This document shows positions 4,083 to 36,069 of a stretch of 40,567 bases of DNA, one piece after another. The notes below the pieces were generated by a model. It was not told the origin of the DNA, did no database searches, and saw only the letters and a list, made by a program, of their open reading frames with translations. This stretch comes from Methanobacteriota archaeon (lineage in GTDB: Archaea > Thermoplasmatota > Poseidoniia > Poseidoniales > Thalassarchaeaceae). Both the position numbers and the translations under genes were made by a program. The DNA is taken from assembly GCA_004195715.1 (NCBI GenBank), contig PSPX01000016.1, positions 1 to 40,567 on the forward strand, read 5' to 3'. Positions within the stretch are counted from its first letter, which is position 1. Each line of letters begins with the position of its first letter.

Positions 4083-4150
4083 GGTTTCGGGCGACCCTAG
4101 GGGTCGCCAAGAATGCTTTGAGTCAGAAACCGCACCAAAGTGAAGGTAGA

Positions 4151-5140: not shown

Positions 5141-5452
5141 CAGGTGCCACCTGAAGGCCAGAGCGCAAATTAATGAGAGTGTGAATGACACTCCATCGGG
5201 CCATCCGAAAGAGGCTGTAAAAACGCTGTATTGGACCGCTGTGAGCACTAGTGTTGCAGCTGCATCCATCAGTGTGCTGCGCCCGAATCCAGAGTGGTTG
5301 GAGATGTGATGCCGGTTCTGTAACGCGACCACACTGAGAGCTAGTATGCCCACTACCAGTAGGTGTCCAACCCACCACCCAGCAGTTGCTCCAAACGCAT
5401 CTACGATGCTATCTTGAAAACCACCTAGGATTGGCGCAGCCATGTCGACCAT
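5126..5452 (-). CDS. Small integral membrane protein, unknown
   Basis: The 108-residue protein has about three hydrophobic segments: WWVGHLLVVGILALSVVAL, a middle stretch with TLVLTAVQ, and a C-terminal SFTLSLICALAFRWHLLIV. Charged and histidine residues sit in the loops, as expected for a real membrane protein. The start may be GTG/ATG at 5452 or ATG at 5443. The gene lies tail to tail with the secreted protein gene and head to head with the glycosyltransferase gene. No family is recognised. Confidence 0.6.
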   Translation of the reverse strand: MVDMAAPILGGFQDSIVDAFGATAGWWVGHLLVVGILALSVVALQNRHHISNHSGFGRSTLMDAAATLVLTAVQYSVFTASFGWPDGVSFTLSLICALAFRWHLLIVE

Positions 5453-5526
5453 GGGTATGCGAAAGGCAGACTGCTCTTGAATTAAATGACCGAAGCCCCT
5501 TATCGTGCCTACCCAAGCGTGGCTCT

Positions 5527-6762: not shown

Positions 6763-6772
6763 AGGTGGCTTG

Positions 6773-7690
6773 ATGGCGTATACTGATGTCACTGTGGAAG
6801 AGGCGTCATGGTTGCTGACAGCTGCTGGAGTGGCACCGTTGAGTAAGATACAGCCACTTACTGGGGGATGGGCCAATTCGAATTATTTGTTAACCCTCAA
6901 TGATGGCACACAGCTCGTTCTGAAGGTCTGGGATGAAAAGTCGCCGGATGAAGTGGAACTGGTAATCAAGCATACATGTTGGCTCGCGGATCACGGTGTG
7001 CCGACACCTGCCCCGTTGCTACTAGGGGAGAATAAATGGATGCTTGTCAAGGACAATCTGGCGTGGATGCTGATGCCGTATATCGACGGTGGGTGGCTGC
7101 CTTCAGATTCTTCATCACTTTACGAACTCGGCAAGACGCAGGCACAGTTGCATGAAGTTCCAATTCATGAGAGCATTCCCACCACGTTCGCGATAGGATA
7201 TGTCCTCTGGGAGAAGCTTGTCAAAGATGCGCGGAAAAAAGATTCAATGACGCCATTCCTACAAATGTTAGAGAAAGAGACACATCTTCTCAAGCAAAGA
7301 ATCCCGATGGATCTTCCCTGCGGCATCATCCATGGCGATCTGTACCCTGACAACGTGATTGGGCGGAAGGGGGAGGTTCTCGCCCTACTTGATTTTGAAG
7401 AAATCTGTATAGAATCGTTTGCGATGGATCTTGTGTCGACCTATGTTGGGTTTGGTTGGAAGGATGGTTTACCAGTTCCCGAATTATGGGATGCGTTGTT
7501 GGCCGGATACCAGTCAGTTCGGCCGTTGACAGATGCAGAACATGCAGCCCTTCCTGACTTGCATCGCTATGCGGTCCTAGCAGTCTCAGCCTGGCGCTAT
7601 TGGCAATTCGTGGTTAATGTGCCTGGAACAGAACACGCCAATCGATATCTGGAAATGGTCGATCGACTGGATAAATCGTTGCCATTCTGA
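6773..7690 (+). CDS. APH-family kinase, homoserine kinase type II-like
   Basis: This is a 305-residue small-molecule kinase of the aminoglycoside phosphotransferase fold. The catalytic loop is IIHGDLYPDNVIG near residue 185, and the metal-binding DFEE follows about 20 residues later. The N-terminal part has the LTGGWANSNYLL nucleotide loop seen in ThrB2-type homoserine kinases. Homoserine is a fair guess for the substrate, but other alcohols or choline-like substrates are possible. ATG at 6773 has a strong AAAGGTGG site just upstream and follows the glycosyltransferase by 10 bases. Right after the stop lies a second, diverged version of the C-terminal codons (7696 onward), so the gene appears to have been replaced or extended by a foreign allele. 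Confidence 0.8.
   Translation: MAYTDVTVEEASWLLTAAGVAPLSKIQPLTGGWANSNYLLTLNDGTQLVLKVWDEKSPDEVELVIKHTCWLADHGVPTPAPLLLGENKWMLVKDNLAWMLMPYIDGGWLPSDSSSLYELGKTQAQLHEVPIHESIPTTFAIGYVLWEKLVKDARKKDSMTPFLQMLEKETHLLKQRIPMDLPCGIIHGDLYPDNVIGRKGEVLALLDFEEICIESFAMDLVSTYVGFGWKDGLPVPELWDALLAGYQSVRPLTDAEHAALPDLHRYAVLAVSAWRYWQFVVNVPGTEHANRYLEMVDRLDKSLPF
7643..7669 (+). repeat. Kinase 3'-end repeat, copy in the live gene
   Basis: These 27 bases encode RYLEMVDRL near the kinase C-terminus. They match 7696-7722 in 21 of 27 positions, and all differences keep the same amino acids. This is a direct repeat with an offset of 53 bases. Confidence 0.8.
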
Positions 7691-7695
7691 TGGTT

Positions 7696-7755
7696 CGCTA
7701 CCTCGAAATGGTTGATAGACTTAGAATCAAGTTTGACTTCATGGGGGAAATTTGA
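7696..7755 (+). pseudogene. Relic of an alternative kinase 3' end
   Basis: Read in frame this stretch gives RYLEMVDRL, then RIKFDFMGEI and a stop. The first nine residues equal those near the end of the intact kinase, which finishes differently (DKSLPF). Six of 27 bases differ and all are silent. This is what the last codons of another allele of the same gene would look like. It begins five bases after the kinase stop and runs to the MOSC start codon. The relic is too short to function as a protein. Its GGGGGAAA segment probably serves as the ribosome site of the MOSC gene. Confidence 0.75.
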
Positions 7756-8238
7756 TTGAACGGAGTTGTCAATTCCGTGAATGTTCGAGGTGAGGGGGGC
7801 GTACCCAAACTACCAGTTAGGGCAGCAACTCTACGGCTAGATGGAGTTGAAGGGGATCACAACAGGTTCCGTACTGAGAGAAGGAATGGTGATCCGAAGC
7901 GAGCGATTTGTATTTTCTCTCTGGAAAGAATACATGATTTGCAGAGGGAGGGACATCCGATCGAAATAGGAACTACAGGTGAGAACCTGACCATCGAAGG
8001 CCTTGACTGGTCCGCTCTTGAAGTGGGAATGAAGTTCAAGGTTGGAGGAGCGACGATTGAATTAAGTGAGCCCTGTGCTCCTTGTAATGTGATTAGGGAA
8101 TCGTTCAAAGAACACAAATTCTCGAGAATTGATCACAGTTTGGAGATGGGTTGGTCGAGATGGCTTGCATCAGTAATCGACGAAGGTGTGGTTAGCTCTG
8201 GTGATTCTGTAAGCTTCGAATATCCGGGTCAATCTTGA
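7756..8238 (+). CDS. MOSC domain protein
   Basis: This 160-residue protein is essentially one MOSC domain, the sulfur-carrier fold of molybdenum-cofactor sulfurases and YiiM-like proteins. Recognised segments are GVEGDHNR near residue 35, FSLERI, GHPIEIGTTGENLTIEGLDW and the cysteine pair in SEPCAPCNVI near residue 112. In this family a conserved cysteine carries or binds sulfur, and detoxification of N-hydroxylated compounds is another known role. The start is TTG at 7756 with GGGGGAAA about six bases upstream; no ATG fits the domain better. It follows the kinase relic directly and probably shares its transcript. Confidence 0.85.
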   Translation: MNGVVNSVNVRGEGGVPKLPVRAATLRLDGVEGDHNRFRTERRNGDPKRAICIFSLERIHDLQREGHPIEIGTTGENLTIEGLDWSALEVGMKFKVGGATIELSEPCAPCNVIRESFKEHKFSRIDHSLEMGWSRWLASVIDEGVVSSGDSVSFEYPGQS

Positions 8239-8263
8239 AGAGGGGGACTCTAGAGGTGATGGC

Positions 8264-9130
8264 ATGATGATGAACAGTGGGGGACCTAAGATGGGTTTCA
8301 GAGCAAGAATAGGGCGTGGCTGGAGGGTAACCAAACTAGGGATGCATGTGGTCAGAGCCGACCCCGAACTCATGGCCTACATGCTGTTCTCAGGAATATT
8401 CTCAATTATCGCTGCAATTGCTCTTCTGGCGCTAACTGGTGGTCTAGGATTCTTCGCCGGAGGTGAAGAGGGTGCTGAGAGTGGAGTCTATGTGGGCGCT
8501 TTCCTCAGTTACATGGCAATAGCGATAATCACTGTATTCTGGAACGCGGCTATAATCGCAAGCGCCCATGAGAGACTGACTGCTGGGACAAATCCAAGTT
8601 TTTCCTATGGTATCAAGCAGGCTATGAAATGCCTGCCCCAGATTGTCATATGGGGGTTAATCTCAGGCACGGTTGGTTTGATTGTCACGGCCCTCCAAAG
8701 TATGCAACATTCGGACAATTTTGTAGTGAGTATATTTGGACACATTGCCTCCTTCATCGTACAGGTCGCTTGGTGGATTTCAACGTTCTTCGTCGTTCCA
8801 ATGATCGTATTGGATAATATTGGCGTTGGCGAGAGTATGTCGAAGAGTCCGGAACTGTTCAAGCAGACCTGGGGAGAGGATGTGGTTTCATCGACTGGAA
8901 CTGGAATAATCAACCTCTTGGTTTGTCTACTGATTGTGGTAATCTGTCTGCCACTGTTCGCACTGGGGGAAATTGGAATCGGGCTGGGAATCTTGGTTAT
9001 GTTCGCTGGCATAGCTGTCTCCGTTCTGTTCTTCAGTGCATGCGAAGCAGTGAATCGTGTCTCTTTGTACTACTTCGCCAAGACCGGGGAGTCGCCTCCT
9101 CTGGCCCAGAAGTACGGGCTCGATTTCTGA
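8264..9130 (+). CDS. Multi-pass membrane protein, DUF6159-like
   Basis: The 288-residue protein has about six hydrophobic segments: after an amphipathic N-terminus (ARIGRGWRVTKLGMHVVRADPEL), a pair near residues 40-100, a pair near 125-185, and a pair near 205-265. The N-terminal RxWxLxKxSxxVxxxDPEL style and the loop with KSPELFKQTWG resemble the DUF6159 family. The match is from memory of the pattern, so the family name is tentative. Starts at 8264, 8267, 8273 or 8291 are all possible, and a GAGGTGATGG site precedes the first. The gene lies 26 bases after MOSC. Function is unknown. Confidence 0.75.
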   Translation: MMMNSGGPKMGFRARIGRGWRVTKLGMHVVRADPELMAYMLFSGIFSIIAAIALLALTGGLGFFAGGEEGAESGVYVGAFLSYMAIAIITVFWNAAIIASAHERLTAGTNPSFSYGIKQAMKCLPQIVIWGLISGTVGLIVTALQSMQHSDNFVVSIFGHIASFIVQVAWWISTFFVVPMIVLDNIGVGESMSKSPELFKQTWGEDVVSSTGTGIINLLVCLLIVVICLPLFALGEIGIGLGILVMFAGIAVSVLFFSACEAVNRVSLYYFAKTGESPPLAQKYGLDF

Positions 9131-9268: not shown

Positions 9269-9327
9269 CCTACTGCAATACGCGCTGCTGAGGCAGTTTC
9301 TTAGCGGTGTGCGGGAGAAAGACGTGT

Positions 9328-11142
9328 GTGAGCACCCGCTTCTACGCGCCGATTCTCGTCTGCATGATGCTGGTGGCGTCCGGGCTACCTAGCTCCGAGC
9401 AGGAGGAGATTGGGGGACTTGGAGACAGGCACTGGACCGACTCAAACGATGGCTATGGCCCAATTAACTACACCAGTGAGCACACTACTGCCACGATTAC
9501 TTCTGAAGGGAGAGGGGCGACACTCACTATGCCGGGCGGGCATGTCTACAATCGGCCTCTCCCCCTAGTCATCGCTCTGCATGGATACTCCAGTTCCGGA
9601 TCCTTCAACGCTTGGTGGATGAGCATGTATGAAAGTGTCCACGAGAATGAGCATTTGCTACTCACCCCAGACGGCTCTATGAACATCATAGGGATGAGAT
9701 TCTGGAATGCCACCGATGCATGTTGCAACTTATTTAACACTGAGGTGGATGATGTTGCCTTCCTCGAGGATCTGATTAACAAATCCGTCCAGAGTTACGG
9801 AGCGGACCCAGACGGAGTCGTGTTGATAGGTCACTCAAATGGGGCTTTCATGGGTCACAGAATGGCCTGCGATCGGGGAGGCTTGATTGAGTCGGTTGTG
9901 TCACTTAACGGAGCAACGTGGAATGATTTCTCCAATGACTGTCCCGATACTGGAAGACCGAATATACTCCATGTACATGGCACTGCAGACAGCACCATAC
10001 AGTACGATGGTGGAATGATGTTTGGAGGAGTGTATCCCTCTGCCCCCCAGTCGACTGCTTATTGGGCTGACAGGTCAGGGTGTGATGCGAGTTGGACAAA
10101 ACTCAGTAGCCTTGATCTGACCAACTCAGATGGGGTAGCTGAAACTGACAATCTCGAGCACCTGAACTGTACTGATGGGAATAGGGTGGCTCACTGGAGA
10201 ATCAATGATGGAAGTCATGCCCCCCTTCTGAATGATCAGGAATGGACGTATCAGACTCTAGGTTGGGCACTGGAGGACTTCTCACGTGACTCCGATGGAG
10301 ATGGTTACCGCGATGATGTGGACGCCTTCATCTACAACCCCAATGAGTGGGCAGATGCCGACGGGGATAATGTCGGAGACAATACGGATCAATGCAACAA
10401 CGACCCTACCGGCTGGATTGACAGTGATGGTGATGGGGTCTGTGTGCCCAGCGATGCCTTTCCCAATAATCCGAACGAGTGGGGGGATGCCGATGGCGAC
10501 GGTATTGGTGACCGTTCTGATGCTGACGACGATAACGATGGGGTTGCTGACTACTACGACGATTTTCCGCTGGACCCTACAGAGTGGGACGACACCGATG
10601 GTGACGGGGTGGGGGACAACGCCGATGACGATGACGATGGTGATGGTTGGGCGGATTCCCAAGATGCCTTTCCGCTGGACCCTTCGGAGCACTCCGACCT
10701 AGATGGTGACGGAGTGGGAGACAATGCCGATGATGATGATGATGGCGACGGCTGGTCTGATGAAGATGAGCTTGTTTGCCTGAGCGACCCCAGTGATGAC
10801 GAGGATGTCCCAGTGGACACCGATGAGGATTGGGAGTGCGACCTGTTTGACGGAGACGACGACGGAGATGGTGTCCCAGATAGCGAAGACCAATTCCCTC
10901 TTGATGCCTCTGAGTGGGTCGATTCCGATGGTGATGGAATAGGAGACAACTCCGATGCATTCCCTACAGATGGCACCGAATGGGAAGACTCGGACGGTGA
11001 TGGGGTGGGGGACAATTCCGATGTTTATCCCAATGACCCATATGAGTGGTTTGACTCTGATGAAGATGGAATAGGAGACAACTCCGATGCATTCCCTACA
11101 GATGGCACCGAATGGGCACAACACAGATCCGTTTCCTCTTGA
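9328..11142 (+). CDS. Secreted esterase with TSP3 stalk, frameshifted
   Basis: The N-terminus is a signal or lipoprotein-type leader. An alpha/beta-hydrolase domain of the LpqC/PHB-depolymerase/feruloyl-esterase type follows: LVIALHGYSSSG, the nucleophile elbow GHSNGAF, the Asp in HVHGTADS and the His in DGSHAP. From about residue 320 the protein consists of thrombospondin type 3 repeats (DSDGDGVGDN, DAFPxDxxEW), which bind calcium and form a stiff rod. GTG at 9328 is preferred over GTG at 9307. The frame ends at 11142 with an abnormal tail after TDGTEW. The next frame continues the same repeats to a C-terminal membrane anchor (11608), so the gene is split by a shift near 11116. The enzyme domain is intact but would lose its anchor. 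Confidence 0.85.
   Translation: MSTRFYAPILVCMMLVASGLPSSEQEEIGGLGDRHWTDSNDGYGPINYTSEHTTATITSEGRGATLTMPGGHVYNRPLPLVIALHGYSSSGSFNAWWMSMYESVHENEHLLLTPDGSMNIIGMRFWNATDACCNLFNTEVDDVAFLEDLINKSVQSYGADPDGVVLIGHSNGAFMGHRMACDRGGLIESVVSLNGATWNDFSNDCPDTGRPNILHVHGTADSTIQYDGGMMFGGVYPSAPQSTAYWADRSGCDASWTKLSSLDLTNSDGVAETDNLEHLNCTDGNRVAHWRINDGSHAPLLNDQEWTYQTLGWALEDFSRDSDGDGYRDDVDAFIYNPNEWADADGDNVGDNTDQCNNDPTGWIDSDGDGVCVPSDAFPNNPNEWGDADGDGIGDRSDADDDNDGVADYYDDFPLDPTEWDDTDGDGVGDNADDDDDGDGWADSQDAFPLDPSEHSDLDGDGVGDNADDDDDGDGWSDEDELVCLSDPSDDEDVPVDTDEDWECDLFDGDDDGDGVPDSEDQFPLDASEWVDSDGDGIGDNSDAFPTDGTEWEDSDGDGVGDNSDVYPNDPYEWFDSDEDGIGDNSDAFPTDGTEWAQHRSVSS
10933..10984 (+). repeat. 52-base exact repeat, copy A
   Basis: This segment (from GATGGAAT to GAATGGG) is identical to 11065-11116. 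It encodes one TSP3 unit, and its context stays in frame. Confidence 0.9.
11065..11116 (+). repeat. 52-base exact repeat, copy B
   Basis: It is identical to 10933-10984. The reading frame breaks immediately at its right end, where it abuts the 66-base tandem repeat. Confidence 0.9.
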
Positions 11143-11608
11143 TGCCTCTGAGTGGGTCGATTCCGATGGTGATGGGGTAGGAGACAACACAGATCCGTTT
11201 CCTCTTGATGCCTCTGAGTGGGTCGATTCCGATGGTGATGGGGTAGGAGACAACTCGGATGCATTCCCAGGAGACGCCAGCGAAACTGAGGACAACGACG
11301 GTGATGGAGTGGGAGACAACTCGGATGCCTATCCTCTTGATGCCTCTGAGTGGGTCGACACAGACGGTGATGGAGTGGGAGACAACTCGGATGCATTCCC
11401 TGGTGATGCAAGCGAGACCTTGGACACAGACGGTGATGGAGTGGGAGACAACTCGGATGCCTATCCTTACGATGCGACCTTGTGGGAGGATGAGTCCGAC
11501 CTAACGTTGAGTGTCCTGTTTGGCATAGTGGTAGTACTGCTCCTCACGATGGTCAACACTAACGCCACCCGACGTTGGTTGGGGTGGAAGCAACAAGATG
11601 ATGACTAG
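11087..11608 (+). pseudogene. Out-of-frame C-terminal part of the TSP3 esterase
   Basis: In the +1 frame relative to the esterase, this segment continues the TSP3 array (units with DPFPLDASEW, DAFPGDASE, DAYPLDASEW). It ends with a hydrophobic helix (LTLSVLFGIVVVLLLTMV) and a short basic tail, the natural anchor of the upstream protein. Real content begins near 11117; the upstream part of the frame is noise. It could be a true mutation, a slippage product that switches between anchored and released forms, or an assembly artefact in repeats. Confidence 0.75.
11123..11254 (+). repeat. Perfect 66-base tandem repeat (two copies)
   Basis: Positions 11123-11188 and 11189-11254 are identical. Each encodes 22 residues of the TSP3 stalk (TDPFPLDASEWVDSDGDG and following). 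Identity at the base level points to a very recent duplication or gene conversion. Confidence 0.92.
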
Positions 11609-27109: not shown

Positions 27110-28381
27110 TCACTCCAGAATAGAATCAATGAGCCATGCTGGGTCGAAGTCGATGAGATCGTCGTAACCTTGGCCGACGCCCGCCAGTACTATCGGTCGG
27201 CCTGTGGCGTGGGCGATCGAAAGAGCGGCCCCGCCTTTGGCATCGGTGTCGAGTTTGCAAAGAGCGGCTCCGTCAAATCTCAACATGCGTTGGAATTCGA
27301 CGGCCTGTGTGACCGCGTCGTTGCCCGCTAAGGCATCGGCCACAAAAATCACCAGATGGGGTTGTGTGACCCGATGGACCTTGCGTAATTCCTCCATCAG
27401 ATTGGTCTTGTTCTGCATCCTGCCTGCGGTATCGATGATTACAACGTCTTCTCCTCGCGCCCTCGCACTCTCTACAGCGTCTCGGGCAACTGCGGCTGCA
27501 TCACCTCCTCTTTGACTGCGAATACAACGTACACCGAGGCGTTCTGCGTGAATTGCAAGTTGATCGATTGCGCCGGCTCTGAAGGTGTCCGCGGCGGCCA
27601 ACACTACGCTGCGACCCTGTTGGGTCAATCTGTTAGCAATCTTTGCAGTAGTGGTCGTCTTTCCTGTACCATTGACACCGACCAACATGATAACTACCGG
27701 GGAACTGTCTTCCAAATGGGCGCTTACGGTCTTGTTAAAATCCCAGTATCCTGCTTCTAGGAGACGGAGCAAGGTGCTTCTGAGTGCTTCCTCGACAACT
27801 ACCTCAATCTTCTTGGTGGTGGAGATACGACTGCCTATGAGTGTCGCCTTGAGTGTATGAATGACATCCTCGACAGCACTTTGCGCCATATCAGATGACA
27901 GTAATTCCTCCTCAAGCTCCTCTAGAATCCTGTCCAACTTATCGCTGCTCATCACCACACGGCCGCCTGTCTTAGTGACTGAATCACCAAGGTTGATCTC
28001 GATCTCGACGGGCCCACTGGCGACAAGATCGTGTCCGGTAGTGCTCTGCATCGGATCCTTGGTTGTAGGTTTCTCTGACTCAGTGGGTCGCTCGGCCTTC
28101 TCCACGGATGCTGCTCGGCGGGCCTTCTTGCGTTCTTTACGACCGATCGGTTTGGCGAAAGGGTCCTCAGTAATCTCGTCAGAATCATCCCACTCTTCCT
28201 CAATTTCTAGAGTGGGTTTTGGGGTGGCTTCCTGGGGAGTTGGTCTAGCCTCTTCTAGGGCTTCTTTCAGACGCTTACCCTGCTCCACAGCCTCTTCTGC
28301 CTCGACGGAGTTTTCCTCAGCAGTGATTTCTTTCTCATCGGTTTTCTTGAAGCGTTTTTTGAAGCGATCGAACAGCCCCAT
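27110..28381 (-). CDS. ftsY: Signal recognition particle receptor FtsY
   Basis: It is the SRP GTPase receptor, which docks ribosome-SRP complexes at the membrane for co-translational insertion. The 423-residue protein has an acidic/basic A region of about 140 residues, an N-domain four-helix bundle, and the G domain: P-loop VGVNGTGKTTTTAK (235-242 core), DTFRAGAIDQL (265 on), DTAGRM (317-322), and KLDTDAKGGAALS (376 on). It starts with MGLFDRFKKRFKK, an amphipathic membrane-contact segment. The start at 28381 is nine bases after the pfdA stop, and the downstream gene follows immediately, giving an operon. Confidence 0.97.
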   Translation of the reverse strand: MGLFDRFKKRFKKTDEKEITAEENSVEAEEAVEQGKRLKEALEEARPTPQEATPKPTLEIEEEWDDSDEITEDPFAKPIGRKERKKARRAASVEKAERPTESEKPTTKDPMQSTTGHDLVASGPVEIEINLGDSVTKTGGRVVMSSDKLDRILEELEEELLSSDMAQSAVEDVIHTLKATLIGSRISTTKKIEVVVEEALRSTLLRLLEAGYWDFNKTVSAHLEDSSPVVIMLVGVNGTGKTTTTAKIANRLTQQGRSVVLAAADTFRAGAIDQLAIHAERLGVRCIRSQRGGDAAAVARDAVESARARGEDVVIIDTAGRMQNKTNLMEELRKVHRVTQPHLVIFVADALAGNDAVTQAVEFQRMLRFDGAALCKLDTDAKGGAALSIAHATGRPIVLAGVGQGYDDLIDFDPAWLIDSILE

Positions 28382-28390
28382 ATGCTCGCC

Positions 28391-28921
28391 TCAGTCATCT
28401 AGAGTGAGGTCGGTACCTCGCTTACGCCGCGCACGGCGGGGGGCGGGAGTACTGGGTGCCGGCTCTTCGGTAATTGTCTCTGGTTCCAAACCCTCTACGC
28501 TCTCATTGAACTTCTGTGCGAGGTCGACAGTAGAGTGTTCCAGTTCGTCGAACTCCGTCTTCATCCTCTCAATTATGGTGATTAGTTCATCGCTCCTCTT
28601 GGTGAGAATCTCGGCTGCCTCTTCTCTGGTACGCTCGGCCTGTACCCTGCTGCCGATATCCACTACAGCACCGCCATCTGCTGGGATGTCGGCCACTATC
28701 TGGACACCTGAGCCAAGAGGGATCATGGCTCCTTTGGCCCCTTCGTCGGGAATGGCCAACAGGGCCTCAATGGCTTGCATCTGCTCAACACGAATAGATT
28801 CTAGTTGACGTACCTGCTGCTCGATGGCCTGCATACGCTCGCGATTAACTTCGACCAGTTGGGCGATGTGTTGTAGCTCCTCGCGGTCGACTGCCATCAA
28901 GCCGCTCGTGATGCCCGACAC
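28391..28921 (-). CDS. pfdA: Prefoldin alpha subunit
   Basis: It is a subunit of the hexameric, jellyfish-shaped co-chaperone that hands unfolded proteins to the group II chaperonin. The 176-residue protein has two long coiled-coil helices (residues about 10-55 and 95-140) joined by the beta-hairpin stretch with AMIPLGSGVQIVADIP, the conserved alpha-subunit core. The tail is longer than usual and basic (PAPRRARRKRG). The start is GTG at 28921 or ATG at 28897. It heads the operon with ftsY and lies 18 bases after the stop of the APS kinase fusion gene, which may be in the same transcript. Confidence 0.92.
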   Translation of the reverse strand: MSGITSGLMAVDREELQHIAQLVEVNRERMQAIEQQVRQLESIRVEQMQAIEALLAIPDEGAKGAMIPLGSGVQIVADIPADGGAVVDIGSRVQAERTREEAAEILTKRSDELITIIERMKTEFDELEHSTVDLAQKFNESVEGLEPETITEEPAPSTPAPRRARRKRGTDLTLDD

Positions 28922-28939: not shown

Positions 28940-29824
28940 TCATTCGCCGTCCCAGATTCCCTCTGCGATCATGAACTCCATGACCTTCGCGGACACGTTG
29001 GCGTGATTGCCTCCGCGTACTCCTGTCGCTGAGACCTTGAATACCTCGGCTGGAATGTCCTCCGCCTCACGTATCTCATAGCCGACCTTGCGGCCATACG
29101 AGACGGCTTCTATGTCTGGCATAATCCACGCCTCGACATCCTCACCTTGGTAGCGGTGTTCTATCATCCGTTTTCGCATCAGAGCCGAGTAGGGGTCCGA
29201 TTCAGATACAGGTGTGTCCCGAATACCTACAATCACGCGCTTACCTTGGTCGAGCTCTTGTTGAATGAGCCATTCGTGACCGACATGTAGCGGTTGCCAA
29301 CGCCCAGGTAGCAATACTCCCTTCGGTTTTTCGAATAAATGCGCCAACCGGTCGACTAAATCCTCGACGCCCTTACCATCTTCTCCACTTGAGTCAAGAG
29401 AAAAGTGAGCGCATTCTGGCTCGTCAAACGGGTCGGTTATTCCAGTAAAGTTGGAAATCTCTCCGCTTCGGGCCTTTGCGTACAGTCCCTTCGCATCACG
29501 CTTCTCACAGACCTCTAGAGAAGTGGAAACGTGTACCATCATAGCGTTTCCAGGGAGAATATCGAGGATCTTCAGACGGACATCCTCGTAAGGTGTGATG
29601 AAGGAGCATAGGACGTTTGTGTGCTTGGATATCATCTTGGCCATGCGAGCCACCCCTAGCAAGTGGCGCTCGCGGCCTTCACGACTGAAGTCGGTGTTTG
29701 AGAAGAAATCGCGTATGGTGTCGCCATCTAGCACTTCGCAACCGAAGCGCTCGGCCGCAGTCATGGCGATGGTTGTCTTACCTGCCCCTGAGAGGCCAGT
29801 TAGCCAGACTACACGATTGTCCAT
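28940..29824 (-). CDS. cysC: APS kinase fused to a HIGH-type nucleotidyltransferase
   Basis: The 294-residue protein has two parts. The N-terminal APS kinase (PAPS formation) shows P-loop GLSGAGKTT (10-18), VLDGDTIRDFF, FITPYEDVR, and KGLYAKARSGEISNFTGI near 112-129. The C-terminal domain (about 168-294) is a small nucleotidyltransferase with GRWQPLHVGHEWLI (HVGH 180-183) and VSATGVR (264-270), the HxGH and ISxTxxR signatures of the superfamily that includes NMN adenylyltransferase and ATP sulfurylase. Domain order matches animal PAPS synthetase, but the second domain is far smaller than ATP sulfurylase. Start ATG 29824 has an AGGTGG site; GTG 29833 is possible. The neighbours are sulfotransferases. 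Confidence 0.88.
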   Translation of the reverse strand: MDNRVVWLTGLSGAGKTTIAMTAAERFGCEVLDGDTIRDFFSNTDFSREGRERHLLGVARMAKMISKHTNVLCSFITPYEDVRLKILDILPGNAMMVHVSTSLEVCEKRDAKGLYAKARSGEISNFTGITDPFDEPECAHFSLDSSGEDGKGVEDLVDRLAHLFEKPKGVLLPGRWQPLHVGHEWLIQQELDQGKRVIVGIRDTPVSESDPYSALMRKRMIEHRYQGEDVEAWIMPDIEAVSYGRKVGYEIREAEDIPAEVFKVSATGVRGGNHANVSAKVMEFMIAEGIWDGE

Positions 29825-29860
29825 CAAAGCCACCTGAAATACGGCCGTGCCACAGTAGTT

Positions 29861-29870
29861 CCCTATATCA
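29861..29870 (-). promoter_or_regulatory. TATA-like box for the APS kinase fusion gene
   Basis: On the minus strand this reads TGATATAGGG and ends about 36 bases before the ATG at 29824. It forms a back-to-back promoter pair with 29893-29898. Confidence 0.45.
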
Positions 29871-29892
29871 CACCGCCGGGAGCGCGTACAAC

Positions 29893-29898
29893 CTATAT
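29893..29898 (+). promoter_or_regulatory. TATA-like box for the sulfotransferase gene
   Basis: CTATAT centred about 26-30 bases before the GTG/ATG starts at 29921-29927 fits an archaeal promoter with a very short leader. A GGAG ribosome-site sequence also lies just before the GTG. Confidence 0.5.
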
Positions 29899-29920
29899 CG
29901 TACGGGGGGCAGGAGTAGTT

Positions 29921-30817
29921 GTGTCGATGATGGAGAATTTGATGCCCGATGTAGGGGCTTTCCTGTTAGGAGCTCCGAAATCAGGGACTACTTGGTTGGC
30001 CAACGTGTTGGAGCAGCACCCCGGAATCTGTATTTCGAACCCGAAGGAGCCGAATGAGGTTGCGACACACAGAGGTACCTTCGGTAGAAATGTCGGTGAG
30101 CCAGATTGGGAGAGATATGCAGGCTGTTTCAAGGGAGAGGGGCTGAAGATGGACTGCTCGGTACACGCACTCGCCTGTCCGGTTGCTCCTAACAGAGTCG
30201 CCGAGCATTGGCCGGAAGCGCGATTTGTGGTCTGCCTGCGGGAGCCTGTAAGTCGAACTATCAGTCATTGGGGGATGGTGCTTGATACTGAAGAGGATGT
30301 GCAGAACGGTGCTGACTGGTCCGACTTCGCCTCAGCGTGGCGCGACCAGCGTTTGAGCTGCGACACCCTATACGGAGATTGTATGAGGAGGTGGTTGGAG
30401 TGTTTTCCCAGAGACCGTTTCCTATTGCTTGACTCGAAAAGAATGAGAGATGAGTCGAGTACTGTTCTGGCTGAGGTGGCAGAACACTTCGGTGTGGAGG
30501 CTTTCGACTTCGATCTGCATGAGGTGCATAATGCCAACACGGCCGACGACAGAAGACCTCTGACCTTCTTTGGAAGGGGATTTCGTTTGGTTGCCTCTAT
30601 GGTGCCTAAATTCTTGAAGGGCCCTTTAGTCTCAATGTTGCAAAAACGGGGTGTGAATATCTACAAAATGCCAGTTCTCAGCAAGGGACGTATGGCTAGG
30701 GAGATTCCAGATATCTCTGAGTTGAGTGCGTTGACTGAGGAGTTGCGGGCAGATCTTGAGTTGTTAGAAGCATTGACTGGATTCGATACCTCGGCCTGGA
30801 GAATTGAGAATTGGTAA
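29921..30817 (+). CDS. PAPS-dependent sulfotransferase
   Basis: It transfers sulfate from PAPS to an acceptor hydroxyl or amine. The 298-residue protein has the 5'-phosphosulfate loop FLLGAPKSGTTWLANVLEQH near residue 13 and the 3'-phosphate site RFVVCLREPVSRTISHW near residue 100. The remainder has the usual helical pattern, with DRFLLLDSKRM and a C-terminal segment where the acceptor site should be. The start may be GTG at 29921 or ATG at 29927/29930. The gene is divergent from the APS kinase fusion, so PAPS supply and use lie on a shared promoter region. The acceptor is unknown. Confidence 0.9.
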   Translation: MSMMENLMPDVGAFLLGAPKSGTTWLANVLEQHPGICISNPKEPNEVATHRGTFGRNVGEPDWERYAGCFKGEGLKMDCSVHALACPVAPNRVAEHWPEARFVVCLREPVSRTISHWGMVLDTEEDVQNGADWSDFASAWRDQRLSCDTLYGDCMRRWLECFPRDRFLLLDSKRMRDESSTVLAEVAEHFGVEAFDFDLHEVHNANTADDRRPLTFFGRGFRLVASMVPKFLKGPLVSMLQKRGVNIYKMPVLSKGRMAREIPDISELSALTEELRADLELLEALTGFDTSAWRIENW

Positions 30818-30821
30818 TTCG

Positions 30822-31943
30822 CTAATTCCACCAGTCTTCATCATCGGTTCCACAGTTACGAAGGGTTTCCTGTACGAAGTCGTCAACCATTTGCCATGGT
30901 TGATTTTCACCAGAGTTCCTCTCTACGTTCACTATTTCCTCTCTGATTATTTCATCTCCCAGTAGTTCCTTTATCGAAAGGTGGTCGTCCCCCCCTTTGT
31001 CCCCTAGGAAAGAAAATTCCAGTTGTCTTCCTTTCTCCTTTGTATCCTCAAGATAAATCAATTTGGAGTCCCCACCGAAACTGGATATAATTTCCAACAA
31101 TTCTGTTGTCGACCGTGCTTCAACCTCCTTCTCTTTAGTTCCGTCTATGAGTACTGAGAAAGTGCGAAATCCTCCCTCGAATTTTTTGGCCCGAGCATCT
31201 AATGCCTGAGAGATCGCGAGGGCCTCATCCATGTCCATTGAATCAAAGTTTTTCTTAATCCACGCAGACCTTGCCATGACTTGAAGCTCTATCGCCTCGG
31301 GACCAGAGTTCCAGCTGCCCTGGACTTGTCCACTAGCCCATACCACCGTCGAAACCAGTTTGTACCTCTTGTGGGAGTGTTCTGGGAGGGTCTTCTCGAA
31401 GGACCTCGCGGTGAAAAGGGCGAGGAGTGGGAGGAGGAGGCAGGTCGATGCACAGAGGAGATTGTACAGAACAAATTCGATTCCCATCATCTGAATCCAT
31501 GTATGAGTTATCAGAACAGCATCTGAGTGATCGTTTGGGTTCACGTACGCAGTCGTATTGGAACCCACGGGGTAGTCCTCAAGCCACTGGTGGGCCGCTC
31601 CGGAGGCGTAGAAATTCACGTACTTCTTTGAATATGAAGTGCTCTTATGTGTCTCACCATCAATCTGCCATTCGAAAAAGATAGTTGGATGGTAGCACCA
31701 CTCGCCACACCCAACGGTCTCATAGACCACTCCGGTGTCAAGAATCTTGGCGTCTTCTGCTTGCCATTTGGAGGTCTCCTGAGAGATCCCAGATGCGATG
31801 TTTACGGTGGTGAATATCAGAAATATTGTTGACCCAACTATGACCCATATCCTAGGCGCCCTGTTGAAAGCAAGGACTGAGAAGTGCAACGATGAGGCTT
31901 TCAAGACGATTCTCCAGAACCCATAAGGTCGTCTCTCAAACAA
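30822..31943 (-). CDS. DUF3592-like membrane protein
   Basis: The 373-residue protein has one membrane helix near residues 30-52 and a second pair near 160-185. Between them is a small beta-domain ending in YVNPNDHSDAVLI, the hallmark of DUF3592 proteins. The C-terminal 190 residues are cytoplasmic and helical/charged, with no family I recognise. Cysteines in VGCGEWCYHP suggest that the domain faces outward. Its stop lies four bases from the convergent sulfotransferase stop. Function is unknown. Confidence 0.75.
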   Translation of the reverse strand: MFERRPYGFWRIVLKASSLHFSVLAFNRAPRIWVIVGSTIFLIFTTVNIASGISQETSKWQAEDAKILDTGVVYETVGCGEWCYHPTIFFEWQIDGETHKSTSYSKKYVNFYASGAAHQWLEDYPVGSNTTAYVNPNDHSDAVLITHTWIQMMGIEFVLYNLLCASTCLLLPLLALFTARSFEKTLPEHSHKRYKLVSTVVWASGQVQGSWNSGPEAIELQVMARSAWIKKNFDSMDMDEALAISQALDARAKKFEGGFRTFSVLIDGTKEKEVEARSTTELLEIISSFGGDSKLIYLEDTKEKGRQLEFSFLGDKGGDDHLSIKELLGDEIIREEIVNVERNSGENQPWQMVDDFVQETLRNCGTDDEDWWN

Positions 31944-31972
31944 TGTATTGTATAGTTATCCACGGCATCAGA

Positions 31973-32773
31973 TTATTTCTGAGCCAAGACCCATTCAGTA
32001 ATCCACTTCTCGTCTGATGTGACCAGGAAGTATGGGTTCAGAATCTCGTCGACCAAATCGTAATCGAGTTTTTTTCCTTCTGGGCCGAGGACCTTTCCCC
32101 CAGCAGCCACTACTACGGCGTGAGCCGCGGCTATATCCCAACAGGATGTTGGACCGAAGCGGGGATACAAATCGGCCGATCCTTCTGCGACCACACATGC
32201 CTTCAGAGATGAGCCAAGACGAAGTAAGTCATACTTGCCTAGTGAGGCAGCGAATATTTCGTCCCTCTCTCCTCTGTGAGAGCCACTGGCCACTAGGCGT
32301 ACTGGTGCAGGAGGTGAGCTTGGACGAACCAACATCGGTCCTGAGCCAGAAGGTGCTCTGCGTTCTGCAGGTACACCGATTCCACCAAGCCATGTTGTGT
32401 TGGTTACTGGAGCATGAACGACGCCAAAAATTGGTTCCCAACGTCCCTCTCGATGAGCCATCATAGCGATGTTTACTGTGAACATACCATTTCTCTTGAT
32501 GAATTCCTTAGTCCCATCTAGTGGGTCGACTAGCCAACAAGATGGAGATGAGGTGGGGTCGCCTATTCGGCCTTCCTCGGAGACTATCGGGATGTTGTTG
32601 TCTATGTTCTTGAGGCCGGCTATTATGACCTCGTGGGCAGCTAGGTCGGCTTCAGTAAGTGGTGAGTCGTCGTCTTTCTTCGTGACTTTTACTGGTGAGG
32701 ATTTGTTGTAGACTTCCATTATCGCCTCGCCTGCTCGTAGTGCGATGGTGACTACTGCCTCGTGGTCGATCAT
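31973..32773 (-). CDS. cysQ: 3'(2'),5'-bisphosphate nucleotidase CysQ
   Basis: It hydrolyses PAP, the by-product of sulfotransferases, to AMP and phosphate. The 266-residue member of the inositol-monophosphatase fold has metal ligands in IPIVSEEG (EE 66-67), WLVDPLDGTKEFI (DPLDGT 83-88), the CysQ-type form of the family motif, and SCWDIAAAHAVV near 215. ATG at 32773 is preferred, with GGTG upstream, because it avoids overlap with the preceding gene; the frame extends to 32812. It lies between two sulfotransferase genes, which supports the PAP role. Confidence 0.9.
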   Translation of the reverse strand: MIDHEAVVTIALRAGEAIMEVYNKSSPVKVTKKDDDSPLTEADLAAHEVIIAGLKNIDNNIPIVSEEGRIGDPTSSPSCWLVDPLDGTKEFIKRNGMFTVNIAMMAHREGRWEPIFGVVHAPVTNTTWLGGIGVPAERRAPSGSGPMLVRPSSPPAPVRLVASGSHRGERDEIFAASLGKYDLLRLGSSLKACVVAEGSADLYPRFGPTSCWDIAAAHAVVVAAGGKVLGPEGKKLDYDLVDEILNPYFLVTSDEKWITEWVLAQK

Positions 32774-32786
32774 ACGAACACCGGAT

Positions 32787-33341
32787 TCAGTAATCCTGCA
32801 ATTCATCCGCATGGGACTCTAATCTACTTCGAGACTCCTCATCGAGATGGAACAAAAACGGGTCCTCATCACCGACGATGTTTTTCCAAGAGGACATCGT
32901 ACGAGCCCATATCTCCTCTCTGGAATTCCATTCCAACCATCGATCCACAAAGTCACAGTGCCTCTGGATCTTCTCATCTTCTGGTTCCATGCGACGGAGT
33001 ATAGCATTCGTCTGAGCGAGAAGGATTCCGAAGGGAGGATTCAATTTGTAGGTGGTGAAAGGATTGCGCTCCTGAACCACAGTGAGGTGCTCACGCCAGA
33101 GGCCTAACGTGGCATCATAGAAGCGACCGATTAGGAGAACGGTGAGAAGAACCGATGCACCAATGGCGAAAAGACCCCAATATGTAGTGGATATGCCTAG
33201 GAAAGTGCCAGAGAAGAACGGGCGCCAACGCACATAGGGCCAAATCAACAGCGTCAGGGTGGTGGTCCAGAATCCCATTGAGATGAGTGTCTGGCTCTGT
33301 TGAATCCGCCAATACTGCCGCATGAACCACTTCTTCATCAT
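32787..33341 (-). CDS. Membrane-associated protein, unknown
   Basis: The 184-residue protein has two hydrophobic helices near residues 18-36 and 52-72 (TLISMGFWTTTLTLLIW and GLFAIGASVLLTVLLIG) and a soluble C-terminal part of about 110 residues that is helical and acidic. It sits between the second sulfotransferase and cysQ on the same strand, 14 bases before the chosen cysQ start, so it is likely part of that operon. No family is recognised, but its position suggests a link to sulfation or surface assembly. Confidence 0.65.
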   Translation of the reverse strand: MMKKWFMRQYWRIQQSQTLISMGFWTTTLTLLIWPYVRWRPFFSGTFLGISTTYWGLFAIGASVLLTVLLIGRFYDATLGLWREHLTVVQERNPFTTYKLNPPFGILLAQTNAILRRMEPEDEKIQRHCDFVDRWLEWNSREEIWARTMSSWKNIVGDEDPFLFHLDEESRSRLESHADELQDY

Positions 33342-33407
33342 ACCTATCCTCCTGTGGGTCTCCTTTCACCGTTGCGCGTCTGGGTCTGATTGGATGGGGT
33401 TCTACCC

Positions 33408-34397
33408 TTACCCCACAATTAGGGATGGGTCGATGTATGAAGCGAGGTTATCTTGGAACTCGATCTCCTCTGCAAACGCTCTCTCGAGTTCACGGCGGGT
33501 TTCGTCATCTAAAACAGATGAATCTGTAGACACTGGTTTGAATCCAGGTGAACGGATAGGGTCAAGCACGGCTCGACGCAGCCTTTTGGTTGGAAGGAGA
33601 ATCTTGGCCATCCCTGAGAGGAATGAGGGGGGTGTGCGAAGTAACTTTGCCCAACCTGCAGGATTCATCCGGCCTCTCTCATTGTAACGAGGAAGTTTGG
33701 TGCCTTGTGGCATCTCATTGGTACCCAACCATGAGAGGATTTTGTTGGTCGTAGCCAGTGGGTCGGCGGCAATTGAAGATAGTGGGACTACTCTAACTCG
33801 CTCACCCAGCTCTCCGACCCAACGCAGGGTAGGTGCCTTCAGGCGGGGGAACTGGAGGAAGCTGTAGGTCTCAGGTATATCTTCGTCAGGGAGGAACGAT
33901 TGGTTTCGAGATAATTCGATCATAGTGGCCCGATCAGTGTCGTACTCCATCAACCTCTTGCGGTGTTCTTGATGCATACTAAGCATCAGGTCCACGGGAT
34001 GACGTAGGGTGATTATGACTCGAGCGTCTGGTAAATGCTCGGACACCGCTTCGAGTGCACGTTGGGAATAGAGGTGGAAGGTGGATTTATCCATCACCCA
34101 TTGGTGTTCATCGGCCCCATCGAGATCGGCCCTAGGAGCTAGGATGGCTGTCCCTTTGGGATGAATTGGTGATGTGGGAAACTCTGCCGGGCCGGCCATC
34201 AAGAAGTGGCTTTCATTCTTCCAAGGGTGATGTATCTCCTCATGTGAGGCCAGCCAATGCATCAATGAGGTGGTGCCAGTTTTCGGGCCGCCAATCAACA
34301 GTAGGTTTGGAGAGGGATGGAACCTATGCACTCTCTGACCTCCATAGGGACGATGTCGAGTGTGGCTTTGAACGCCGCGCTTGAGATAGGGTTTCAT
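33408..34397 (-). CDS. PAPS-dependent sulfotransferase, second paralog
   Basis: The 329-residue protein has the 5'-phosphosulfate loop NLLLIGGPKTGTTSLMHWLA near residue 32 and the 3'-phosphate site ARVIITLRHPVDLMLSMHQ near 124. Other regions differ strongly from the sulfotransferase at 29921, so the two probably act on different acceptors. The first 20 or so residues are basic and may be an extended N-terminus. Its start overlaps the stop of the upstream small gene (ATGA), a coupled pair. CysQ lies in the same direction two genes downstream. Confidence 0.88.
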   Translation of the reverse strand: MKPYLKRGVQSHTRHRPYGGQRVHRFHPSPNLLLIGGPKTGTTSLMHWLASHEEIHHPWKNESHFLMAGPAEFPTSPIHPKGTAILAPRADLDGADEHQWVMDKSTFHLYSQRALEAVSEHLPDARVIITLRHPVDLMLSMHQEHRKRLMEYDTDRATMIELSRNQSFLPDEDIPETYSFLQFPRLKAPTLRWVGELGERVRVVPLSSIAADPLATTNKILSWLGTNEMPQGTKLPRYNERGRMNPAGWAKLLRTPPSFLSGMAKILLPTKRLRRAVLDPIRSPGFKPVSTDSSVLDDETRRELERAFAEEIEFQDNLASYIDPSLIVG

Positions 34398-34753
34398 TCC
34401 TCTTCGGAAATGGTAGTGCCACGAAAGTGGGCAACTACGATCGGAGCGATAGAATCGGAAGGGGATATCTCTTCGAGGCTATCGATCAAGACGAAGCGTC
34501 GAGGTACGCCATGGCGGCTGCCGAAATTGGAGTATATGCGATGTCTAGCATCGTCCTCATCGAGGGCGACTAGGTCATGACTGAAGCCTTGCTGGCTCTT
34601 GCGGGCCTGAAAACTACCTATTGCCCGATACGCCTTCATCGCGCTGGCCACCTGAGGTCGTGATATAAACGCCACGAGACCGGTGGGTTGTACAACGCGG
34701 TGATACTGGTGTTGATTCCCCCTCAGCCCCTCAAGGTTCAATAGCAGGTCCAC
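34394..34753 (-). CDS. Small protein of unknown function coupled to a sulfotransferase
   Basis: The product is about 119 residues from GTG at 34753; upstream extension of the frame to 34921 lies over the divergent coiled-coil gene and is not protein-like. It opens with MDLLLNLEGLRGNQHQYHRV and has TGLVAFISRPQVASAMKAYRAIG, then RRFVLIDSLEEISPSDSIAPI near the end, which suggests an alpha/beta fold. The stop overlaps the sulfotransferase start by four bases. The start is only 19 bases from the divergent gene start at 34773. No family is recognised. Confidence 0.6.
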   Translation of the reverse strand: MDLLLNLEGLRGNQHQYHRVVQPTGLVAFISRPQVASAMKAYRAIGSFQARKSQQGFSHDLVALDEDDARHRIYSNFGSRHGVPRRFVLIDSLEEISPSDSIAPIVVAHFRGTTISEEE

Positions 34754-34772: not shown

Positions 34773-35252
34773 ATGACTGATAGTAACCCTCCACAGGGAC
34801 TCGGGGAAGAGGAAGGTCCGGATTTAGCCACACGCCTCTCGGATATGTCACCCGAGCGACTTGCTGAAGAAGTGATTTCGGTATGGGAGGAAGTGCTCAG
34901 AGTTGAAGGGGAATTGGCCACTGCACGACAACGCGGTCGTGCCCTGGAGATGGAGTTGGATGCGCGAGAGAGTTCTGGATCTAACAGAGCTAGGGTGGCT
35001 GAATTGGAAGAGGCTTTGCGAGTAGCGGATTCGAGGATTTCCCAGATGGAGGCACTGTTGGAGAATGAGCGTGTCCGCCGGGCCGATATTGAAGTAGGTG
35101 GTGAGAGGGGTCGATTGGTGGAACTGCAGGATGAAAATGCCCGCCTTCTGCGTTCAGAAGAGGAGCATGTGATGTTGATACTCGATATGGAGGCGCAGCT
35201 CGAGCGTTTAGTTGATGAAGTTGAAAATCTTAGGCGCGGTTCATCTCAGTGA
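34773..35252 (+). CDS. Coiled-coil protein, unknown
   Basis: The 159-residue protein starts at ATG 34773. From about residue 25 to the end it is continuous heptad-like coiled coil (LATARQRGRALEMELDARES, RVAELEEALRVADSRISQME, LVELQDENARLLRSEEEH), acidic overall, with no membrane segment. It may dimerise and act as a scaffold. It is convergent with the GGGPS gene and overlaps its end by 23 bases. No specific family is recognised; low-complexity coiled coils match many unrelated proteins. Confidence 0.7.
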   Translation: MTDSNPPQGLGEEEGPDLATRLSDMSPERLAEEVISVWEEVLRVEGELATARQRGRALEMELDARESSGSNRARVAELEEALRVADSRISQMEALLENERVRRADIEVGGERGRLVELQDENARLLRSEEEHVMLILDMEAQLERLVDEVENLRRGSSQ

Positions 35253-36069
35253 TGAGTTGGGACAATACTCGTTGGAGTTCGTCGGCGTCGTCGAACTCCT
35301 CGGCGAGATTTCCTGTGATAATCCAATCAGCACCGGCCTCCGCTGCCTTCCGGGCGGCGACACCGTCACGGATACCACCACCAACCACAAGAGTGAGTTT
35401 GCACGCCTCCTTAGCACTTCGAATTAGGTTCTCCCCCACTGGAGAGGCGGCCCCACTCCCTGCTTCGAGGTAGAACATGCTGAAACCGTATGATTCGGCT
35501 GCCATCGCATAGGATTTAACGCGATCTTCGTCATCGGGCTGAATGAGATCGGCTTGGCCTACCTGTCCTGCCTTCCCACCCGGTGCACAGATTAGATATC
35601 CCATCGGCAAAGGAGTCACGCCCGCCTCTCGAATGAAAGGGGCGCCGGCGACCTGTTCCTCGATTAGAAACCGGGGTGAGGTGCTGTTCATTAGCATCAT
35701 GAATGTAATTCCATCAGCGGCAGGGGAGAGGGCAGCAGCACCCTGTGGGAAGAGTATGATTGGTACTACCCACTCCTCTTCCTCAGAGGATGAATCTTGA
35801 CTAGAAGCCCATGTGACTAGTTCTAGAGCCTCCCGTATAGCGATGATTGTATCATGCACATTATCCATATCTGTGTCGGAAGATCCACCCACCAGCACCA
35901 TCCGACTACCGGCTGCTACAGCGGCAACACATCTCTTTGCGGCGACTTCTGGACTCTGGTCTACAGGGTCAATGAGGATGGCGTGACGGGTCGCTGTTCC
36001 AGGTTGGCAGACATACCTTAGGAGCCAGTCAGGCTTATCACTCACAAATGACCGTCCTGAGTTTCCCAT
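35230..36069 (-). CDS. Geranylgeranylglyceryl phosphate synthase
   Basis: It forms the first ether bond of archaeal membrane lipids, joining geranylgeranyl diphosphate to sn-glycerol 1-phosphate. The 279-residue TIM-barrel protein has HAILIDPVDQSPE near residue 29, VGGSSDTDMDNV near 60, ILFPQGAAALSPAADGITFM, MFYLEAGSGAASPV near 205, and VVGGGIRDGVAARKAAEAGADWIITGN near 235-265, the phosphate-binding loop set of the GGGP synthase family. Length and motifs are normal for the archaeal group. It lies just after the reductase-like fragment and ferredoxin on the same strand, probably one lipid operon. Confidence 0.94.
   Translation of the reverse strand: MGNSGRSFVSDKPDWLLRYVCQPGTATRHAILIDPVDQSPEVAAKRCVAAVAAGSRMVLVGGSSDTDMDNVHDTIIAIREALELVTWASSQDSSSEEEEWVVPIILFPQGAAALSPAADGITFMMLMNSTSPRFLIEEQVAGAPFIREAGVTPLPMGYLICAPGGKAGQVGQADLIQPDDEDRVKSYAMAAESYGFSMFYLEAGSGAASPVGENLIRSAKEACKLTLVVGGGIRDGVAARKAAEAGADWIITGNLAEEFDDADELQRVLSQLITEMNRA

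Follow-up and report, generated by a model that had tools for sequence, protein, structure and literature searches.

A predicted sulfation module in marine archaea with a candidate single-chain PAPS synthase

The window analyzed here, the whole 40,567-nucleotide contig PSPX01000016.1 (C4) of a 1.45-Mb, 92% complete genome from a Thalassarchaeaceae-like archaeon of Marine Group IIb (MGIIb), carries a compact set of genes that is probably a dedicated sulfation module. Its central component is a two-domain protein, referred to below as the fusion, in which a domain of the adenosine 5′-phosphosulfate (APS) kinase family precedes a nucleotidyltransferase domain. The gene lies in a slot bordered by rpl18a and pfdA-ftsY, together with genes for two sulfotransferases (ST1 and ST2) and for CysQ, the nucleotidase that removes 3′-phosphoadenosine 5′-phosphate (PAP). 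Profile matches confirm all four gene types, which a preliminary description of this DNA had placed here. On the strength of comparative genomics, we propose that the C-terminal domain of the fusion is an unrecognized ATP sulfurylase that would use ATP to adenylate sulfate, forming APS and releasing pyrophosphate, and would thereby replace CysD and CysN. The N-terminal kinase of the same polypeptide would phosphorylate APS to 3′-phosphoadenosine 5′-phosphosulfate (PAPS), from which ST1, ST2 and unlinked sulfotransferases would transfer sulfuryl groups to acceptors that are most likely glycan residues, and CysQ would destroy the by-product PAP. We estimate the probability of this reading, in which the fusion alone activates sulfate to PAPS and a glycan is the likeliest acceptor, at about 0.64. 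If the C-terminal domain is indeed an ATP sulfurylase, then the fusion is a self-contained PAPS synthase.

Accounts of sulfate activation generally name two types of ATP sulfurylase, Sat and CysDN. Because PAPS requires APS, and APS requires an ATP sulfurylase, genomes that have the fusion and lack both Sat and CysD point to the fusion's own domain. Sat (PF01747) was found in none of the 194 genomes of the order. Among 148 genomes of the family, with contig-end fragments included in the counts of the fusion and CysD, 52 carry the fusion and 19 carry CysD, and these sets do not overlap (P about 1e-4 under independence, ignoring phylogeny); none of the 52 fusion genomes encodes the CysD PP-loop subunit. 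An APS kinase of approximately 40% identity, inside a long reading frame, is encoded in exactly the 19 genomes with CysD, and in the one case tested (G065) this frame proved to be CysN-CysC. CysD-CysNC, the minority solution in the family, occupies the fusion's own slot in the three genomes examined (G065, G190 and G054), and the two systems are also exchanged inside genera g3 and g9. Thus, the search for an ATP sulfurylase elsewhere in the genome, which the preliminary description had recommended, revealed no canonical enzyme in the family except where CysD-CysNC replaces the fusion. An apparent co-occurrence of the fusion and CysD in a genome of the sister family (G059) was rejected, since it is due to a contaminant contig of 4.7 kb that is 98.4% identical to G044; this contig (C43, locus L064) appears to be an MGIIb sequence wrongly binned in a Marine Group IIa (MGIIa) genome.

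The distribution of CysQ, an enzyme useful only where PAP is made, follows the same pattern. The CysQ of the window clears the TIGR01331 equivalog cut-off (237.1 versus 228.8 bits) and matches CysQ of known structure (PDB 3b8b, E 3e-44). Of the 65 family genomes with CysQ, 64 also have CysD or the fusion (Fisher p about 1e-32, uncorrected for phylogeny). In the sole exception, G038, the contig ends just before the expected place of the PAPS-synthesis gene. Since the fusion and CysD-CysNC are mutually exclusive, share a slot and are both tracked by CysQ, it is simplest to suppose that the fusion by itself does the job of CysD plus CysNC.

The C-terminal domain, comprising approximately 130 residues, matches PF01467 (CTP_transf_like) at amino acids 174–238 (E 7e-5), and we classify it as a HIGH-motif nucleotidyltransferase related to nicotinamide mononucleotide (NMN) adenylyltransferase (NMNAT). 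The window protein contains the motifs GRWQPLHVGH, IRDT, YGRKVGY and SATGVR, and in an alignment of 24 sequences GRWQPLHxGH, IRxT, PDI, YGRxVGY and SATxVR are invariant or nearly so. Accordingly, the features of the superfamily are all present, namely the HxGH and (S/I)xTxxR motifs, here as the near-invariant PLHVGH and SATGVR, and a Rossmann-like fold. An AlphaFold model of the isolated domain is of medium confidence (pLDDT 81), and with this model Foldseek returns a probability of 1.00 to NMNAT and phosphopantetheine adenylyltransferase, the best structural neighbors being NMN adenylyltransferases. Although the domain thus resembles the archaeal NMN adenylyltransferases in its HIGH motif, related fold and SxTxxR motif, it falls far under the cut-off of their NCBIfam model arch_NMN_Atrans (TIGR01527; 24.8 versus 181.2 bits), and the profile similarity is weak and confined to the first half of the domain, with the second half unmatched. 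Moreover, when the NMNAT model was searched in 12 genomes, 10 of them fusion-bearing, a separate protein outscored the fusion in 11 of the 12, and on this ground NMNAT moonlighting was rejected as the main role of the fusion.

With a mean column identity of about 88%, the nucleotidyltransferase domain equals the whole fusion in conservation, and it retains HxGH and SxTxxR. Across genera the fusion protein is 82% identical, while FtsY falls to 63–67%. Recent horizontal spread was considered as the cause of this high identity and discarded, because fourfold-degenerate sites are as saturated in the whole fusion (identity of about 0.3 between genera) as in ftsY and cysQ; the identity therefore reflects constraint. 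Conservation of the motifs and the protein at saturated synonymous sites indicates that the nucleotidyltransferase is a working domain and not a relic.

Several observations weigh against the assignment of ATP sulfurylase activity. The nearest solved relatives of the C-terminal domain are NMN and phosphopantetheine adenylyltransferases and not ATP sulfurylase; the QxRNPxHxxH motif of Sat is missing from it, and no PF01747 match was found in the fusion. The kinase domain lies below the NCBIfam apsK (TIGR00455) equivalog_domain cut-off (126.6 versus 138.7 bits), and the search for other ATP sulfurylases covered known families, in draft genomes. Two genomes from records labeled Ca. Thalassarchaeum betae (G017, locus L040, and G021, locus L037) carry the fusion with no CysQ found, so PAP removal there must go another way. 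A short cousin of the fusion coexists with NodP/NodQ in Microvirga (see below). Finally, five genomes of genus g7 have one sulfotransferase gene and no recognized source of PAPS, implying either that this type of sulfotransferase may not need PAPS or that an unrecognized source exists. At the two g7 loci L148 (2745–3581) and L149 (3825–4667), from genomes devoid of fusion, CysD and CysQ, the sulfotransferase gene adjoins one for a GT4 glycosyltransferase, and the L148 protein is a Sulfotransfer_3 (E 2e-17).

Some of these points would suit an alternative in which the kinase makes PAPS, APS is supplied by an ATP sulfurylase of an unrecognized family encoded elsewhere, and the nucleotidyltransferase does another job, such as binding, regulation or a different adenylylation. 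The resemblance of the domain to NMNAT rather than to Sat, and the coexistence of a degenerate version of it with NodP/NodQ in Microvirga, fit this account, which we nonetheless consider somewhat unlikely given that the fusion replaces CysD and CysNC in one step, never occurs with CysD in the 148 genomes, and has invariant catalytic motifs in its nucleotidyltransferase. Also, in haloarchaea and MGIIa the fusion travels with sulfotransferases, and neither CysD nor CysN was seen beside it in the haloarchaeal plasmid and MGIIa neighborhoods viewed.

Both sulfotransferases appear capable of using PAPS. Their binding motifs, read from sequence and aligned to PDB 3rnl and NDST, comprise a 5′-phosphosulfate-binding motif (APKSGTTWL in ST1 and GPKTGTTSL in ST2) and a 3′-phosphate-binding motif (REPVSRTIS and RHPVDLMLS, respectively), and so the PAPS-binding residues, which the preliminary description had proposed to check, are retained. 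The PF13469 scores of ST1 and ST2 (48.6 and 48.9 bits versus a cut-off of 27; E about 1e-12 each) are accompanied by matches to 3rnl (E 6e-11 and 2e-12) and by weaker ones to heparan-sulfate sulfotransferases. As had been described, the two are dissimilar, each being nearest to its own orthologues in relatives.

The acceptor is most likely a glycan, to judge from the glycosyltransferase genes that adjoin sulfotransferase genes in relatives. A close relative, G144, lacks sulfotransferases in the slot; its orthologues of ST1 and ST2 are instead encoded next to a Sulfotransfer_2 protein and a glycosyltransferase of family GT2, in an interval flanked on one side by the gene for a predicted surface protein and on the other by an APH-MOSC pair. 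Genus g2 has the fusion and CysQ, the latter convergent, alongside what is by inspection a locus for surface polysaccharides, with genes of the ABC-2 exporter and UDP-sugar dehydrogenase-like kinds. In G090, an MGIIa genome, the neighbors of the fusion are an epimerase, a glycosyltransferase and two sulfotransferases. The earlier suggestion of a sulfated surface molecule is therefore supported as regards sulfation, with a glycan favored over a lipid, while a surface location is suggested by the neighboring genes. A variant that keeps the proposed route to PAPS but has an archaeal lipid as its acceptor seems unlikely. Geranylgeranylglyceryl phosphate synthase (GGGPS) adjoins the slot in the window and in most of the relatives' loci compared, and haloarchaea are known for sulfated glycolipids. 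However, the GGGPS adjacency is kept even in genomes without slot sulfotransferases and so is not evidence for sulfolipids, and in relatives the sulfotransferase orthologues lie by a predicted surface protein and by glycosyltransferases of families GT2 and GT4.

The N-terminal domain of the fusion (amino acids 7–150) matches PF01583 at residues 7–146 (E 8e-38) and exceeds the Pfam gathering score (130.3 versus 21.1 bits). This cut-off is loose, as FtsY also clears it at 22.7 bits, so control genomes that score for APS kinase tell us little. We regard the domain as a divergent member of the APS kinase family and not as an equivalog. The P-loop and the APS-contacting residues (DGD, R41, F49, R54, KGLY and FTG) are kept, except for an N-to-H change at residue 57 that is shared with 2yvu, an archaeal APS kinase of solved structure. 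Judging from conservation in relatives, translation probably starts at the ATG of amino acid 4 (29824). The APS kinase fusion of the preliminary description is thus borne out, although its partner domain had been left unidentified.

A CysC-like CDP-phosphoramidate kinase in Campylobacter makes a different 3′-phosphorylated activated nucleotide, and pairs of kinases and nucleotidyltransferases yield nucleotide-activated groups in other pathways. That the fusion likewise makes such a nucleotide and not PAPS would agree with the subthreshold apsK score and the substitution at residue 57, but we judge it improbable, as the residues typical of APS kinases are retained, the substitution also occurs in 2yvu, CysQ and sulfotransferases accompany the fusion, and the fusion takes the place of CysD-CysNC.

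CysD, CysN and CysC have been reported in MGIIb under assimilatory sulfate reduction, with sulfotransferases also named as a possible use (Orellana et al. 2019, PMC6864105). Service in assimilation is now a most improbable role for these genes and is largely refuted, since sulfite reductase (PF01077) is absent from all 109 family genomes searched, the same search being positive in 11 of 14 control genomes, and PF01507 detects nothing strongly in the family apart from CysD, leaving no PAPS reductase. Reduction to sulfide by known enzymes is thereby ruled out in the family, from which it follows that PAPS serves sulfation and not reduction. The gene counts favor sulfotransferase use over assimilation in MGIIb and agree with the preliminary description, which had preferred sulfation to sulfate assimilation alone and had seen no PAPS reductase.

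The genes of the slot and its surroundings are listed in Table 1. ST1 is the one plus-strand gene within the slot; ST2, the 184-residue membrane protein, CysQ, the DUF3592 protein and the fusion lie on the minus strand, and the first ATG of ST2 overlaps the stop codon of rpl18a by four bases.

Table 1. Features of the predicted sulfation locus and its borders (window coordinates)
Feature	Position	Strand	Remarks
APS kinase fusion	28940..29833	-	PF01583 + PF01467; 297 aa
Nucleotidyltransferase domain of fusion (proposed ATP sulfurylase)	28943..29332	-	aa ~168-297; NMNAT-like by profile and fold
Sulfotransferase ST1	29921..30817	+	PF13469/PF00685; PDB 3rnl match
DUF3592 membrane protein	30822..31943	-	PF12158; between CysQ and ST1
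CysQ, 3′(2′),5′-bisphosphate nucleotidase (PAP removal)	31973..32812	-	TIGR01331
184-aa membrane protein	32787..33341	-	neighbor only; 79/109 family genomes
Sulfotransferase ST2	33408..34397	-	PF13469; PDB 3rnl match
rpl18a (ribosomal L18Ae/LX), upstream slot border	34394..34639	-	PF01775
pfdA, prefoldin subunit, downstream slot border	28391..28921	-	PF02996
ftsY, signal recognition particle receptor, downstream border	27110..28381	-	PF00448
GGGPS, housekeeping neighbor	35230..36069	-	PF01884

This arrangement was compared with 40 loci from relatives; the fusion is present in most of these, and CysNC or a distant homologue stands in its place in a few. Across several genera the recurring order is GGGPS, rpl18a, (ST2), membrane protein, CysQ, (ST1), PAPS-synthesis gene, pfdA, ftsY, where parentheses mark the sulfotransferases. 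The fusion and CysQ hold a constant order in many Poseidoniales genomes, while ST1 and ST2 are patchier. Because the same order recurs between rpl18a and pfdA-ftsY in so many genomes, the grouping is not due to chance, and the co-occurrence in relatives that had been singled out for checking is confirmed, if less evenly for the sulfotransferases.

The two membrane proteins, which the preliminary description had counted with the cluster, are both present, although neither belongs to the system. The 184-residue protein occurs widely, including in genera without PAPS genes, and is thus a general protein of the family, whereas none of the 40 loci compared has an equivalent of the DUF3592 protein, which is seen in this genome only and probably lies outside the sulfation system. 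Hence the functional unit is the fusion, CysQ and the sulfotransferases, and the membrane proteins were discarded as candidates for a sulfate transporter or flippase. An apparent in-frame TGA in the gene for the 184-residue protein of genus g2 was likewise dismissed, as the alignments had overrun an ordinary stop codon overlapping the next gene.

Relatives of the fusion extend beyond the family. Within the genome collection, a scan by two short peptide patterns found full-length close homologues in Poseidoniales only, and IMG/VR scans with the fusion and its C-terminal domain, which used strict patterns, returned no relatives. Nine haloarchaeal plasmids carry a fusion, labeled 'adenylyl-sulfate kinase' where annotated, that is 37–38% identical over its full length and keeps most motifs of the Poseidoniales protein. 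The gene follows a sulfotransferase gene, with at most one small gene between, in all four plasmids examined, and is itself followed by a YqcI/YcgG gene in three of these. Such megaplasmid 'cysC' genes of Haladaptatus, Natrinema, Halostagnicola and Halocatena therefore resemble the window system in the fusion itself and its position directly behind a sulfotransferase, but differ in having YqcI/YcgG in place of CysQ and another type of sulfotransferase.

Shorter cousins occur in Stenotrophomonas and Xanthomonas phages (H1–H5), on an AT-rich contig of uncertain origin (L068), and in Microvirga lotononidis. They share the domain order and a YGRxVGY-like motif with the fusion, but they are only 23–28% identical to it and have a shortened kinase without the KGLY/FTG region. 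The copy on L068 lies beside a sulfotransferase gene in a sugar-nucleotide locus. That of M. lotononidis (L147, 4232–9770), in a region that is nod-like by inspection, lies between a NodH-like sulfotransferase and NodP/NodQ, and its nucleotidyltransferase site is degenerate (HESH, SPTAVQ). The Microvirga NodQ has no APS kinase domain, and the short cousin may supply that activity. In the one annotated phage region viewed (L137, 3989–4729), the short fusion lies near NADAR and MazG-like genes with no sulfotransferase, and hence its substrate may differ.

Two established systems serve as points of reference. Animal PAPS synthases (PAPSS1/2) likewise combine an N-terminal APS kinase with a C-terminal sulfate-activating domain, as proposed here for the fusion, in one polypeptide that serves sulfotransferases. 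However, the C terminus of the fusion is not Sat but a 130-residue, NMNAT-like HIGH domain, and the fusion has 297 residues as opposed to more than 600. The CysD-CysNC complex, which occupies the same slot in sister genomes, would by hypothesis have the same output, but the fusion lacks the CysD PP-loop and the CysN GTPase and is one gene of 0.9 kb rather than two of about 2.8 kb.

We lean toward the view that the C-terminal domain represents a third class of ATP sulfurylase, one that arose within the HIGH-motif superfamily on its NMNAT side and has no family-level relationship to Sat or CysDN. With its APS kinase it would form an unusually small PAPS synthase of marine and halophilic archaea, tied to sulfation and not to sulfur assimilation, relatives of which occur in bacteria and phages. 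No such fusion and no NMNAT-like ATP sulfurylase were found in the open-access literature. If genes annotated 'adenylyl-sulfate kinase' conceal a third ATP sulfurylase, this would account for the formation of PAPS in archaea that have sulfotransferases and no recognized ATP sulfurylase. Haloferax volcanii, whose genome was negative for Sat and CysD in our control searches, may be one such archaeon; that it sulfates its own glycans once given Halobacterium sulfotransferases (PMC11980604) fits this idea without proving it. If correct, our proposal would also make a compact enzyme available for supplying PAPS in vitro, correct the view of MGIIb as sulfate assimilators, and suggest that abundant archaea of the ocean carry sulfated glycans.

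Two further regions of the window are of note. The stretch at 4058–9130 encodes a predicted surface protein, a GT4 glycosyltransferase, and APH, MOSC and DUF6159 proteins. The part that corresponds to the sulfotransferase-bearing interval of G144 (4058–8238) contains the GT4 gene and no sulfotransferase gene. Because relatives hold sulfotransferases and other glycosyltransferases in this interval, it looks like a site of exchange of glycosylation genes. At 9307–11142, a secreted esterase-like protein is followed by many Asp-rich repeats similar to thrombospondin type 3, an array that runs into the open reading frame at 11087–11608.

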